Shown: piece after piece, positions 19,389 to 23,838 of the stretch | Layout of the letters: the number at the start of each line of letters is the position of its first letter | Numbering within the stretch: position 1 is the first letter of the stretch | NCBI RefSeq assembly: GCF_000721705.1 | Contig: NZ_JOJL01000028.1 | Location: 62,001-126,000 of the forward strand | Origin: Actinoplanes subtropicus | GTDB taxonomy: Bacteria > Actinomycetota > Actinomycetes > Mycobacteriales > Micromonosporaceae | Reading direction: 5' to 3' | DNA length: 64,000 nt | Notes under the pieces: model-generated | Told to the model about the DNA's origin: nothing | What the model saw: only the letters and a program-made list of their open reading frames with translations | Databases searched by the model: none | Position numbers and translations under genes: made by a program

Positions 19389-19566
19389 GCGATCACTATA
19401 CGCCAGGACGTAACGGTTGCGTTCCGCCGTTTGGTCGGATAGCCTCGCACCACGTCGATACGAACCCGTTCCATCGACAACGGCTTGGCATGCTGAAGTT
19501 GTGTTCTCGCGGAAAGCATCTGGTCCCGATTCCCCGGTCGGGCCGACGAGATCGGAGCACCACTCC

Positions 19567-20463
19567 ATGGCTCAGACGACCGTCGTCGAGTCCTACACCG
19601 GGCCATCCGCCAAGGAGCTGGCCCGGAAGTATGGACTAGGCGCCGCCGGGCGACTGCCCAGCCTGCTGGAATACACCCGGCAGCTGTGGGCGTACCGGCA
19701 CTTCATCTGGGAGTTCGCGGGCGCCAAGGTCTCGGCCGCGCTCGGCAACACGCGGCTGGGCATGGTCTGGCAGGTCCTGACCCCGCTGTTCAACGCGGGC
19801 GTCTACTACGTGATCTTCGGCGTGCTGCTGAACACCAAGGGCGGCGTCCACAACTTCATCCCGTACCTGTGCACCGGCGTCTTCATCTTCGGCTACACCC
19901 AGTCCGTCGTGCAGGCCGGTATCCAGGCGATCAGCGGCAACCTCGGGCTGATCCGGGCGCTGCACTTCCCGCGGGCCAGCCTGCCGCTCTCGATCACGCT
20001 CGTCGAGGCGCGCAACATGATCGCCTCGATCGCCGTGCTGATGGGCATCGTGCTGCTCACCGGCGAGCCGATCAACCTTCAGTGGCTGCTGCTGGTCCCG
20101 GCCCTGCTCCTGCAGACGATCTTCAACGCCGGCTTCGCGATGCTGGTCGGCCGGCTCGGTTCGAAGCTGCACGACCTGCGCCAGCTCATCCCGTTCATCA
20201 TGCGCGTCTGGATGTACGGCTCGGCCGTGCTCTACCCGGTCACCCGGTTCACCGAGCACCTGCACGGCTGGAAGCTGAACCTGGTCCTGGCGAACCCGAT
20301 GCTGGTCTACATCGAGCTGATGCGGCACGCCCTGATGGAGAACGTGAAGCTGGCCGCCTCCCCGACCCTCCTCTGGACCGAGGCGGTCATCTGGGCCGTG
20401 GTCATGGGCATCGGTGGGTATGCGTACTTCTGGCGTGGAGAGAAGGGTTACGGCCGTGGCTGA
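19567..20463 (+). CDS. ABC-2 polysaccharide/teichoic-acid export permease (TagG-like)
   Basis: The 298-aa protein starts at ATG 19567 (MAQTTVVESYTG). A cytoplasmic N-terminus precedes six helices of the ABC-2 type. The amphipathic start LWAYRHFIWEFAGAKVSAALGNTRLGMVWQVLTPLFNAGVYYVIFGVLL is characteristic of TagG/Wzm permeases that export lipid-linked wall teichoic acid or O-antigen. Its partner ATPase follows and overlaps by eight bases. The CDP-glycerol transferase 10 kb downstream makes a polyol-phosphate polymer a reasonable substrate, although a galactan exporter of the RfbD type would look similar. Confidence 0.88.
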   Translation: MAQTTVVESYTGPSAKELARKYGLGAAGRLPSLLEYTRQLWAYRHFIWEFAGAKVSAALGNTRLGMVWQVLTPLFNAGVYYVIFGVLLNTKGGVHNFIPYLCTGVFIFGYTQSVVQAGIQAISGNLGLIRALHFPRASLPLSITLVEARNMIASIAVLMGIVLLTGEPINLQWLLLVPALLLQTIFNAGFAMLVGRLGSKLHDLRQLIPFIMRVWMYGSAVLYPVTRFTEHLHGWKLNLVLANPMLVYIELMRHALMENVKLAASPTLLWTEAVIWAVVMGIGGYAYFWRGEKGYGRG

Positions 20464-21232
20464 CGAAGAGCGGATCCCCACCGTCATCGCGGAGAACGCG
20501 CACATCATCTACCGCATCCACGGCTCGGTCTCGGCCGCGCAGAACTCGCCGGTGAGCAGCTTCCGGCGGTTGGTGACAAGGACCAAGAGCGCGGCCGTAC
20601 GCGAGGTCCACGCGGTCAAGGGGGTCAACTTCATCGCGTACAAGGGCGAGGCGATCGGCCTGATCGGCACCAACGGCTCGGGCAAGTCCACGCTCCTGCG
20701 GGCGATCGCCGGGCTGCTCCCGGTCGAGGCCGGCGGCGCGATCTACGCGGCCGGCCAGCCCTCGCTGCTCGGCGTGAACGCGGCGCTGATGAACGACCTC
20801 TCCGGCGAGCGCAACGTGGTCCTCGGCTGCCTGGCCATGGGCATGACCCCGGCCGAGGTCAAGGGCCAGGTGGACGACATCATCGAGTTCTCCGGCATCA
20901 ACGAGCGGGGCGACTTCAGCTCGCTGCCGATGCGGACGTACTCGTCCGGCATGGGCGCCCGGCTGCGCTTCGCGATCGCCGCGGCCAAGAAGCACGACGT
21001 GCTGCTCATCGACGAGGCGCTGGCCACCGGCGACGCGAAGTTCCGCAAGCGCAGCGAGCAGCGGGTCCGCGACCTGCGCGCCGAGGCCGGCACCGTCTTC
21101 CTGGTCAGCCACAGCGAGCAGTCGATCCGGGACACCTGCGAACGCACGATCTGGCTGGAGAGCGGCGAGCTGCGCGCCGACGGCCCGACCGAGGACGTGA
21201 TGAAGGAGTACGAGACCTACGTCAAGAAGTAG
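20456..21232 (+). CDS. ABC polysaccharide export ATPase (TagH/Wzt-like)
   Basis: The 258-aa protein starts at GTG 20456, inside the permease gene and behind GAGAAGGG. Walker A is GTNGSGKST (71-79). The degenerate signature YSSGMGARLRFA is typical of TagH/Wzt ATPases, and Walker B is DVLLIDEALATGD. The C-terminus ends soon after the switch region, so it lacks the carbohydrate-binding domain of O-antigen Wzt proteins. This suits TagH-like or RfbE-like exporters that do not recognise a terminal cap. It works as a dimer with the upstream permease to flip a lipid-linked glycan across the membrane. Confidence 0.9.
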   Translation: MADEERIPTVIAENAHIIYRIHGSVSAAQNSPVSSFRRLVTRTKSAAVREVHAVKGVNFIAYKGEAIGLIGTNGSGKSTLLRAIAGLLPVEAGGAIYAAGQPSLLGVNAALMNDLSGERNVVLGCLAMGMTPAEVKGQVDDIIEFSGINERGDFSSLPMRTYSSGMGARLRFAIAAAKKHDVLLIDEALATGDAKFRKRSEQRVRDLRAEAGTVFLVSHSEQSIRDTCERTIWLESGELRADGPTEDVMKEYETYVKK

Positions 21233-21266: not shown

Positions 21267-22274
21267 TCAGATCACCGACAGGTGTACGTGGTTGGTGTGG
21301 TCGCTGGACGGGTCGCCGTTGCCTCGGGTGTACGCCTTCCAGCCGCTGCTGGGCAGCCAGATGCGTTTGAACCAGATGACGTAGAGCACGCCCAGTTTGT
21401 CGGAGTTGTTGATGAAGTAGTTGGCCAGGTTCGTCCCGTACGTCTTGCTGGCGCCGGTCGCGACCCCGCCGAAGCCGCCCGGGTCGGCCGCGAAGTCGCA
21501 GGCCCGGCCCTTCGGATGCTCGCCGCTGTTCTGCTCGCGCCAGCAGTGCACGTAGTGCGTGAAGCCGGCGGCCTGGGCCTGCTGCATGGCGTGCAGCATG
21601 CGCAGGGTGATCCGGCCACTGCTGGTCGGGTCGTCCACCATGCCGCTGCCACCCTGGAACGCGGACGCGCCCTTGCTGGTGCCACCGTCACTCGGCTGCG
21701 GGTCGTCCTGGCCGGCGTTCGCCGCCTTCAGCGCGCCCTCGGCCTGCGCCTTGCGCCGGGCCATCAGGTTGACCTGCTTCTGCTGGTCCGCGACGGTGGC
21801 GTCGATGGCGAGCTTGGCCTGGGCCTGGCTGTCCCGGGTGGTCTCGAGGTCGCGCAGGATCGCCCGCTGCTGGACCCCGACCGTCTCGAGCATCTCGGCG
21901 CGGTCCAGGAAGCCGGCCGGCGAGTCGGCGGTGACCAGCGCGCTCATCGGGCCGAGCCGGCCGGTCTTATAGGCCTGCTGGACGATCACGTCGAATGCCT
22001 TCTGCTTCGGCCCGACCTCGGCGTCCAGCTGCTTGAGCTGGGCGTTCAGATCGGCCTGCCGCTTCTGGCCGGCGGCCAGCGCGGCCTTGGCGTCGAGCCA
22101 GCCGCGGGAGGCCGCCTCGAGCTGCGAGGTCAACGACTTGGAGCCGCCCTCGCCGTCGTCGCCGGTGCCCGGCGCGGCGGAGGCCGGGCCGGCGACCGCG
22201 ACCGCCAGGCCGGTGACGGCCATCATCAGGGCGAGCGTCGCCGCTAATCGGCCGCGGACAGAAATGTGCCGCAC
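21267..22274 (-). CDS. Secreted coiled-coil protein with C-terminal LAS-type (M15-like) metallopeptidase domain
   Basis: The 335-aa protein starts at GTG 22274, nine bases after GGAAGGA. It has a signal peptide ending at ASAAP (about 33), a helical coiled-coil region (about 45-180), a polar linker, and a C-terminal domain (about 215-335). That domain has EHPKGRACDF (H-x6-D) and a final HTNHVHLSV (HxH), the zinc pattern of LAS peptidases such as VanY, and matches the ARB-07466-like C-terminal domain of actinobacteria. The coiled coil resembles those of NlpC/P60 and EnvC-like wall hydrolases. A c-di-AMP riboswitch in its leader supports a wall-remodelling role. Its paralog is divergent at 22771. 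Confidence 0.78.
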   Translation of the reverse strand: MRHISVRGRLAATLALMMAVTGLAVAVAGPASAAPGTGDDGEGGSKSLTSQLEAASRGWLDAKAALAAGQKRQADLNAQLKQLDAEVGPKQKAFDVIVQQAYKTGRLGPMSALVTADSPAGFLDRAEMLETVGVQQRAILRDLETTRDSQAQAKLAIDATVADQQKQVNLMARRKAQAEGALKAANAGQDDPQPSDGGTSKGASAFQGGSGMVDDPTSSGRITLRMLHAMQQAQAAGFTHYVHCWREQNSGEHPKGRACDFAADPGGFGGVATGASKTYGTNLANYFINNSDKLGVLYVIWFKRIWLPSSGWKAYTRGNGDPSSDHTNHVHLSVI

Positions 22275-22291
22275 AACAGTTCCTTCCGTCG

Positions 22292-22410
22292 GCCGCCGAC
22301 CGGGTTAGCTGACGGGTTCGGGATGGAAGCGATCCCTACCGCTCGCGCGGATTCACCCCAAAACGGGAAACGGTGGTTCCCCGGCTCGCCCTCGCGGGCG
22401 ATTAGGCGGC
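22292..22410 (-). promoter_or_regulatory. c-di-AMP riboswitch (ydaO-yuaA class) for the minus-strand hydrolase gene
   Basis: Read on the minus strand, the leader has the conserved ydaO blocks in order: GAGCCGGGGAACC, GGGGTGAAT, GGTAGGGA and CGAACCCGTCAGCTAAC. Closing helix GCCGCC (22410-22405) pairs with GGCGGC (22297-22292). It ends 18 bases before the GTG of the hydrolase gene. In actinobacteria this class usually turns off wall hydrolases when c-di-AMP is high. The expression platform is not evident. Confidence 0.92.
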
Positions 22411-22635
22411 GATCTCCGTGTGGAGATCGGCTCCGACCATACCCATGATATCGATTGATCGACAGTTCTCGTACTCTGCGCAATTCCGCGATGACCCGTG
22501 GTCACTTTCTTACGGAACGTCGCCGGAGGATTACTGCATTGACATTCTTTGAACCCTTAAGGCCGGCTTGAGCTCGGGTAAACTCTCCGACGGCTCTGCC
22601 GTCGTGGCGCCGCCCCCGAGGCGCCGGCAGGGCCA
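22411..22635. other. Promoter region between the two divergent riboswitches
   Basis: This gene-free stretch must hold both promoters. It contains three perfect hairpins: GATCTCC-gtgt-GGAGATC (22411-22428), CGACGGC-tct-GCCGTCG (22588-22604) and GGCGCC...GGCGCC (22607-22624). On the plus strand TTGACA occurs at 22539-22544 and TAAACT at 22579-22584, but not with standard spacing. No small ORF is supported. Confidence 0.4.
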
Positions 22636-22751
22636 CCGCCCAATCGCCGTGAGGCGAGCCGGGGAACCAATGTTCCTCACCACTGGGGTGAATCCGCGCG
22701 AGCGGTAGGGATCGCTTCCGTCCCGAACCCGTCAGCTAACCCGGTCGGCGG
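22636..22751 (+). promoter_or_regulatory. c-di-AMP riboswitch (ydaO-yuaA class) for the plus-strand hydrolase gene
   Basis: The conserved blocks are GAGCCGGGGAACC (22656-22668), GGGGTGAAT (22685-22693), GGTAGGGA (22704-22711) and CGAACCCGTCAGCTAAC. CCGCC (22636-22640) pairs with GGCGG (22747-22751). Bases 22685-22751 match the divergent riboswitch at 66 of 67 positions. The hydrolase ATG is at 22771 behind GGAAGGAA. Confidence 0.93.
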
Positions 22752-22770
22752 ATAACCGGAAGGAACTTGG

Positions 22771-23838
22771 ATGACCGTACGCCCCCGCCGGTGGCAGACG
22801 CTTGCCCTGGCACCGCTCGTGGCGCTCTCGTTCCTGGCGGCGCCCACCGCCCCCGCGAGCGCCGACCCTGACACCTCTTCCTCTTCCTCTTCCTCTTCCT
22901 CGTCGTCCGGCTCGTCGGCCACGCCGGACGAGGGCTCGGACGAGGTCGAGGCGAACGCCACCCTCAACGACGTGCTCGAGTCGTCGAACCGCAAGTACGT
23001 GCAGGCCAAGGCCGCGGTCACGAAGTCGACCGCGACCCAGAAGCAGCTGGGCACCAAGATCGCCGAGGCCGAGGCCAAGCGGGACGCGCTGATTCCCGAG
23101 GTCAACGCGATCGCCGCGCAGCAGTACGCGATCGGTCACATCGGCACCGCCGGCTACCTGCTCGGCAGCCAGGGGCAGGACGACTTCTTCGCCAAGGCGG
23201 TATCGCTCGAGGAGATCAACACCCTGCACGATCGCAAGCTGCACGAACTCAACGCGGCGATCGACGAGGTCACCGCGACGAAGTCGGCGCTGGACGCCGA
23301 GGTGAAGGCGCAGCAGACCAACCTGCTCGCGATGCAGAAGCAGAAGACCGCGGCCGAGAACGCGCTCACCCTGGTCGGCGGCACGAGCCTCACCGGCGGC
23401 TTCGTCGACGCGGTCTCGAAGGTGGCGGCGCCCGCGCCGCGCAACGCCGACGGCGGTTTCTCCCCGGAGAAATGCACCGTCGACGATCCGACCACGGACG
23501 GTTGCATCACTCCGCGCATGCTGCACCTCTACCAAGAGGTGAAGAAGGCGGGCTTCAATCGATTCGTCGGCTGTCACCGCAACGGCGGGCCGTTCGAGCA
23601 TCCGAAGGGCCGGGCCTGCGACTGGTCCCTGCAGATGAGCGGATTCTCCAACGCGCACAACGCCGACATGAAGAACTACGGCAACAACCTGATGGCGTTC
23701 CTGGTACGCAACGCCGACCGGTTGGGCATCTACTACGTCATCTGGTACAAGCAGATCTGGTTCCCCGCGACGGGTAACTGGCACGCCTATCACGGCGTCA
23801 GCGCGCACATGGACCACGTACACGTATCGGTGCTTTAG
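22771..23838 (+). CDS. Secreted coiled-coil protein with LAS-type metallopeptidase domain, paralog of the 21267 gene
   Basis: The 355-aa protein has a signal peptide ending near ASADP (about 31), a tract of 11 serines (36-46), a coiled coil (about 60-205), and a C-terminal domain (about 235-355). The domain has EHPKGRACDW (H-x6-D) and MDHVHVSVL (HxH at the end), the expected zinc ligands, and YYVIWYKQIWFP shared with its paralog. Cysteines in EKCTVDD, DGCITP, GCHRN and ACDW may pair. It lies behind its own c-di-AMP riboswitch and is followed by a strong terminator, so it is a single-gene unit. Wall peptide cleavage is the likely activity, but other zinc-dependent functions are possible. Confidence 0.78.
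   Translation: MTVRPRRWQTLALAPLVALSFLAAPTAPASADPDTSSSSSSSSSSSGSSATPDEGSDEVEANATLNDVLESSNRKYVQAKAAVTKSTATQKQLGTKIAEAEAKRDALIPEVNAIAAQQYAIGHIGTAGYLLGSQGQDDFFAKAVSLEEINTLHDRKLHELNAAIDEVTATKSALDAEVKAQQTNLLAMQKQKTAAENALTLVGGTSLTGGFVDAVSKVAAPAPRNADGGFSPEKCTVDDPTTDGCITPRMLHLYQEVKKAGFNRFVGCHRNGGPFEHPKGRACDWSLQMSGFSNAHNADMKNYGNNLMAFLVRNADRLGIYYVIWYKQIWFPATGNWHAYHGVSAHMDHVHVSVL
22876..22899 (+). repeat. Hexanucleotide repeat (TCTTCC)4 encoding serine
   Basis: Four perfect TCTTCC units encode eight of the eleven serines following the signal peptide of the hydrolase. Other codons for the tract are TCG and TCC. In-frame slippage would change linker length without breaking the gene. Confidence 0.8.

Follow-up and report, generated by a model that had tools for sequence, protein, structure and literature searches.

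Two paralogous genes for putative wall hydrolases, here called A and B, diverge from a single intergenic region of about 0.5 kb in which each is preceded by a full-length c-di-AMP riboswitch aptamer of its own, and this divergent two-aptamer layout is old and has been kept across the Actinoplanes group. The reading that we consider probable is that of an old divergent pair of wall-hydrolase paralogues, each with its own riboswitch and its own candidate promoter, in which the switches turn translation off via a pseudoknot. c-di-AMP, the presumed ligand, would bind and fold the aptamer; in the folded state, the CTTCC loop of the last hairpin would pair with the GGAAG of the Shine-Dalgarno sequence, and the resulting pseudoknot would keep the ribosome off the mRNA, so that both hydrolases would be turned down together at translation. 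The OFF direction and the level of control are what we infer for this locus.

The coordinates of all features are collected in Table 1. A cmscan search with all Rfam families returned the two RF00379 (ydaO/yuaA) aptamers as the sole matches above cut-off in the window (the whole 64-kb stretch of DNA analysed here). Both are full length against the model (1–134 of 134) and score more than twice the RF00379 cut-off of 38 bits, which bears out an earlier sequence-only reading that had called a complete ydaO-class aptamer on each strand, ahead of two divergent paralogous genes. The spacing between aptamer end and start codon is 3 nt for A (GTG) and 5 nt for B (ATG). The window's genome (11.26 Mb) carries seven RF00379 aptamers in total and one match to c-di-AMP synthase (DAC; E 2.2e-27), so the host should be able to make the messenger. 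The two aptamers share an inverted repeat with arms of 68 nt at 99% identity and a spacing of 323 nt, plus a second stretch (22369-22390 and 22653-22674) at 91% identity. Over the 67-nt arms as first delimited, our recount likewise gives a single base difference.

Table 1 Features of the divergent locus, with positions counted from the first letter of the window.
Feature	Position	Strand or location	Basis
Gene A, 335 aa, GTG start	21267..22274	minus	reading frame
c-di-AMP riboswitch aptamer of gene A	22278..22418	minus	RF00379, 88.1 bits, E 3.2e-19
Shine-Dalgarno of gene A, GGAAGGAA	22280..22287	minus	sequence
GGAAG, proposed pseudoknot strand of A	22283-22287	minus	loop-tail pairing tests
Inverted repeat, left arm	22293..22360	inside aptamer A	sequence self-comparison
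CTTCC, last hairpin loop of aptamer A, proposed Shine-Dalgarno partner	22325..22329	minus	sequence and pairing tests
Leader hairpin directly 5' of aptamer A	22410..22429	minus	consensus fold of 35 leaders; pair-preserving changes in relatives
Candidate promoter of A: TGTCGA, 17 nt, TATGGT	22436..22464	minus	conserved block facing A, centre alignment of 35 loci
Candidate -10 of B: TAAACT in conserved GGTAA(A/G)C block	22579..22584	plus	centre alignment of 35 loci
GGCGCC-loop-GGCGCC hairpin directly 5' of aptamer B	22606..22625	plus	fold of the window's own sequence
c-di-AMP riboswitch aptamer of gene B	22627..22765	plus	RF00379, 85.5 bits, E 1.7e-18
Inverted repeat, right arm	22684..22751	inside aptamer B	sequence self-comparison
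CTTCCG, last hairpin loop of aptamer B	22715..22720	plus	sequence and pairing tests
Shine-Dalgarno of gene B, CGGAAGGAA, with proposed pseudoknot strand CGGAAG (22757-22762)	22757..22765	plus	sequence and pairing tests
Gene B, 355 aa, ATG start, paralogue of A	22771..23838	plus	reading frame

The controlled proteins are strongly diverged, as had been claimed. In the window they share 32% identity across 368 columns (E 3e-56), and within genomes the identity between A and B is about 32–37%. Protein A consists of a coiled coil (residues ~46-184) followed by a VldE-like LAS metallopeptidase domain (~215-335), with the catalytic-domain fold of VldE found in a model of A. VldE (Spr1875) is an L,D-endopeptidase of S. 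pneumoniae, and in excerpts of its description an Asp372 Ala mutant is inactive (PMC11667670). The likeness, as far as those excerpts go, comprises the modelled fold, the zinc ligands His, Asp and His and the framing Arg (PMC11667670); the corresponding motifs R-x6-H-x6-D and H-x-x-HVH occur in all 60 A and all 60 B proteins. VldE differs, in the same part of the source, in having a wall-binding module and a linker where there is an N-terminal coiled coil here, and in the Asp372 position (PMC11667670), which is Asp in all 60 B proteins but Asn in all 60 A proteins, so that catalysis of A may be altered. RipC/EnvC FtsEX-type hydrolases also have coiled coils, but the catalytic domain here is VldE-like, and the coiled-coil match to that type (8idc, E 4.7e-6; Foldseek 3.3e-3) is weak evidence, as long helices match many unrelated proteins; the VIA structure-match list was likewise filled by unrelated coiled coils. 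No Pfam family scored above cut-off, the NCBIfam matches, RipC and DIP1281 among them, were all weak, and PF26571 was seen solely in precomputed annotation of homologues. Protein B is 88% identical to a protein of Actinoplanes sp. KI2. Taken together, A and B appear to be hydrolases that combine a coiled coil with a VldE-like domain of predicted L,D-endopeptidase activity, the structure being modelled for A. The earlier proposal of two secreted LAS-type peptidase candidates stands for the C-terminal domain, and secretion, like enzyme activity, is a prediction for both proteins. Two plus-strand frames at 19417-21232, convergent with gene A and ending just before it, resemble by eye the permease and ATPase of an ABC exporter.

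In its aptamer model and its place before wall-hydrolase genes, the pair belongs with the actinobacterial rpfA/nlpC type of ydaO/yuaA switches. Excerpts of one study report six such leaders in S. lividans, before secreted hydrolases and a transglycosylase (PMC8079986). What sets the present locus apart from that type is the presence of two back-to-back copies serving two divergent paralogues. The closest mechanistic parallel is the nlpC riboswitch of C. glutamicum, described in part of the text of PMC9960051 as an OFF switch, probably translational, for which a CTCC/GGAG pseudoknot was proposed. Here, as there, a canonical terminator is lacking and the aptamer is complementary to the ribosome site; nlpC is, however, reported in that text as a single riboswitch, and the motif here is CTTCC/GGAAG rather than CTCC/GGAG (PMC9960051). 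Given the short distance between aptamer and start codon there is no room for an intrinsic terminator, so control is most likely translational.

The proposed pairing can be followed through the relatives. Across 60 pairs, 119 of 120 last-hairpin loops contain TTCC and 119 of 120 tails contain GGAAGGA. For 94 unique loop-tail combinations, the mean duplex energy was -9.12 kcal/mol for own partners, -8.54 for swapped partners (0 of 5000 as low) and -5.96 for shuffled loops; the 47 combinations from other loci gave -9.14 for own versus -8.42 for swapped partners (7 of 5000). In this pairing test 11 of the 64 loci yielded no row since the pattern failed, and the two rows of L109 represent the Spirilliplanes pair discussed below. 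Outside the usual motif the partners change jointly, as in AGCC/GGCT (L150) and CCTCTC/GAGAGG (L157). In 61 of 100 combinations the tail finds its best partner in the loop; on average, 2.2% of sequence segments elsewhere do better. Across classes, then, the loop is both complementary to and co-varying with the Shine-Dalgarno sequence. Within A alone or B alone, own loop-tail pairs had no advantage over swapped pairs (3518 and 1335 of 5000), because loop and tail hardly vary there; the support comes from differences between the classes. An alternative is that premature transcription termination controls the genes, as reported for the S. coelicolor rpfA riboswitch in excerpts of PMC10117811, and that the match between loop and Shine-Dalgarno sequence is a by-product of purine-rich ribosome sites. 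CTTCC does match any GGAAG site, and the indifference to swapping within A or B fits this explanation, but aptamers that stop so close to the start codons and the advantage of matched over swapped pairs across classes argue against it, and we regard it as unlikely.

A sigma-70 consensus scan gave no promoter in the region, and the candidate promoters of A and B in Table 1 derive from conservation; the same scan reported two terminator-like sites, both on the plus strand in the centre between the aptamers, which measures 203-294 nt in 35 loci. For the B-leader hairpin region, the consensus fold of 35 leaders favours a different pairing from the fold of the window's own sequence. The B leader ahead of the aptamer (22586-22636) is strongly conserved, and GCCCCCGA within it is nearly invariant. 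Between the candidate promoters, a block at 22489-22521 is partly conserved in relatives and could be a regulator site, conceivably an MtrA box. In two loci, L065 (G007, 1839-2057) and L076 (G018, 2343-2557), aptamer A has an insert of ~80 nt that is long-hairpin-like.

The inverted repeat had also been suggested to act as a recombination switch that flips the 325-bp centre and thereby exchanges promoters between the genes. Near-identical 68-nt arms could in principle recombine, and in one genome (Actinoplanes sp. TBRC 11911, described below) aptamer A is lost and the B tail is A-like, which indicates that the locus does rearrange at times. Against this, the centre aligned better in the forward direction in all 59 relatives against two references (the margins were small for L049, at 4.5, and L137, at 5.0), and the conserved block facing A is unlike that facing B in the centre alignment of 35 loci. 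The single orientation in these relatives leaves inversion unsupported, and as an explanation of the repeat it is very improbable.

How widespread is the paired layout? In a first draw it was found in 35 of 36 genomes of the genus, the window's genome included, and in a draw of 250 genomes of the family it was present in 60 of 61 Actinoplanes sensu lato genomes. Of these 60, one spacing pattern recovered 40 and another 13, and seven were found individually (G001, G008, G017, G023, G024, G159 and G234). The pair also occurs, at another spacing, in a genome assigned to Spirilliplanes yamanashiensis (G087). Among 189 genomes from other genera, neither spacing pattern gave a match; this zero is to be read as a lower bound because the patterns miss other spacings, the Spirilliplanes pair among them. 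Eleven genomes of other genera searched with the full RF00379 model contained no pair; Rfam scans covered 19 of the 22 loci from other genera (L109-L130). The core pattern found 42 of 80 named loci to be paired, and 0 of 35 Micromonospora and Phytohabitans loci, where this exact pattern would miss variant aptamers; in tblastn, these loci showed no A-like gene on the opposite strand. A homologue of B is present in 121 of 121 genomes of the family, so this gene is older than the pair. The one Actinoplanes exception is G021 (assigned to Actinoplanes sp. TBRC 11911; L071 and L186, on the same contig). Here A (65%) and B (73%) are still divergent and aptamer B is retained, aptamer A is lost, and the promoter side joins the A tail directly (L071, about 1740-2160). 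The B tail of this genome is of the A type, resembling the A tails of other species.

The near-identity of the two arms in the window raises the question of whether the aptamers are held alike by constraint or homogenised by gene conversion, both of which had been put forward. The aptamers are more constrained than the proteins they precede: within genomes, 23% of aptamer columns differ between A and B (35 pairs), compared with the low protein identities given above. We compared whole aptamers over 154 columns in 60 pairs, L099 and L142 having been dropped from 62 loci since one aptamer in each did not match the core pattern. The nearest aptamer was one of the same type from another genome in 119 of 120 cases and one of the other type from another genome in the remaining case; it was never the partner from the same genome. 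Mean distances were 0.297 between A and B within a genome and 0.302 between A and B across genomes, versus 0.196 among A and 0.146 among B; the window's own A-B distance is 0.255. Own partners are thus no closer than same-type copies from other genomes, and bulk homogenisation is unsupported. These nearest-neighbour and distance tests rule out bulk concerted evolution, and homogenisation fails as a general explanation. Judged by their sequences, the two aptamer types have otherwise followed separate lines of descent.

The arms themselves present a more nuanced picture. A single base separates the A arm of the window from its own B arm, and the B arms of L054 and L059 are just as close to this A arm; the window's B arm differs from the nearest foreign A arm by two bases. 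At one edit or less, the window stands alone among the 60 own pairs, and 7 of 3540 cross pairs are as close; at two edits or less, the counts are 4 of 60 versus 35 of 3540. We split the arm into conserved segments, loop 1 (the variable hairpin loop) and loop 2 (the last hairpin's loop), and shuffled partners inside four protein-tree groups for 59 of the 60 pairs (L141 left out). Loop 1 was more alike in own than in permuted pairs (3.80 vs 4.38; 4 of 5000 permutations, and 0 of 5000 when shuffling was unrestricted by group), as was the whole arm (1 of 5000). Loop 2 gave 625 of 5000, and the conserved segments showed no within-genome excess at all (1.58 vs 1.58; 3082 of 5000), nor was there any in groups C3a and C3b. 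Leaving out L049, which by the tree lies outside group C2, changed the figures to 13 of 5000 for loop 1 and 24 of 5000 for the whole arm, and thinning eight near-identical sisters as well gave 86 and 96 of 5000. In C2, the window's own group, loop 1 gave 970 and the whole arm 59 of 5000 without L049.

Several single cases are suggestive of local conversion. L040 and L043 have a common 12-nt loop in both aptamer copies, and L092/L097, L066 and L049 are further cases. In L132 (G197), loop 2 of A has the form of its own B, and in the sisters L104 and L131 it is still of the A form. The GGGGTGCATCC variant occurs in A of only two genomes (L042 and L078), both of which are among the 10 of 60 with the variant in B. 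Ongoing gene conversion across the inverted repeat, keeping both aptamers alike, would account for these cases, for the excess of close arms among own pairs and for the loop 1 and whole-arm permutation results. It sits poorly with the weakening of the loop 1 signal once L049 is omitted and sisters are thinned, with the conserved segments and two groups that show no excess, with the whole-aptamer comparison, and with foreign B arms that match the window's A arm as well as its own partner does; we think it rather improbable. That the window's two arms are almost identical is mostly due to strong constraint on the aptamer core, with perhaps a little local conversion. Of the conversion proposal, what survives is local: in a few lineages the short variable loop has likely been converted, with modest statistical support, and the comparison across genomes shows this small loop excess and none over whole aptamers. 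A further, tentative and rather unlikely idea is that the back-to-back aptamers serve as a local recombination substrate, in which short patches (the variable loop, the loop that pairs with the Shine-Dalgarno sequence, the tail) would occasionally be copied, or a whole switch lost, while promoters and enzymes stay apart. If true, the c-di-AMP response of the pair would be retuned jointly. A literature search on riboswitches and gene conversion returned nothing on point.

We found no description of a divergent c-di-AMP riboswitch pair in a literature search whose coverage mostly excluded subscription papers, including the original ydaO work, and the available portion of a paper on contiguous riboswitches (PMC12452182) makes no mention of divergent, opposite strand, inverted, c-di-AMP or ydaO. 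The parts of the locus are known, and the layout, in which two switches for one messenger share one short region, is one for which that search gave no description. It constitutes a naturally replicated system that the Actinoplanes group has retained; in Actinoplanes sp. TBRC 11911, the one natural case of its kind, one of the two switches has been lost. The matching of loop and Shine-Dalgarno sequence over many aptamers supports the pseudoknot proposed for C. glutamicum nlpC, and can be tested by paired mutations. Finally, the locus adds a predicted VldE-type hydrolase to the set of wall-remodelling functions linked to c-di-AMP, and brings to light an Asp-to-Asn split between the two paralogues.
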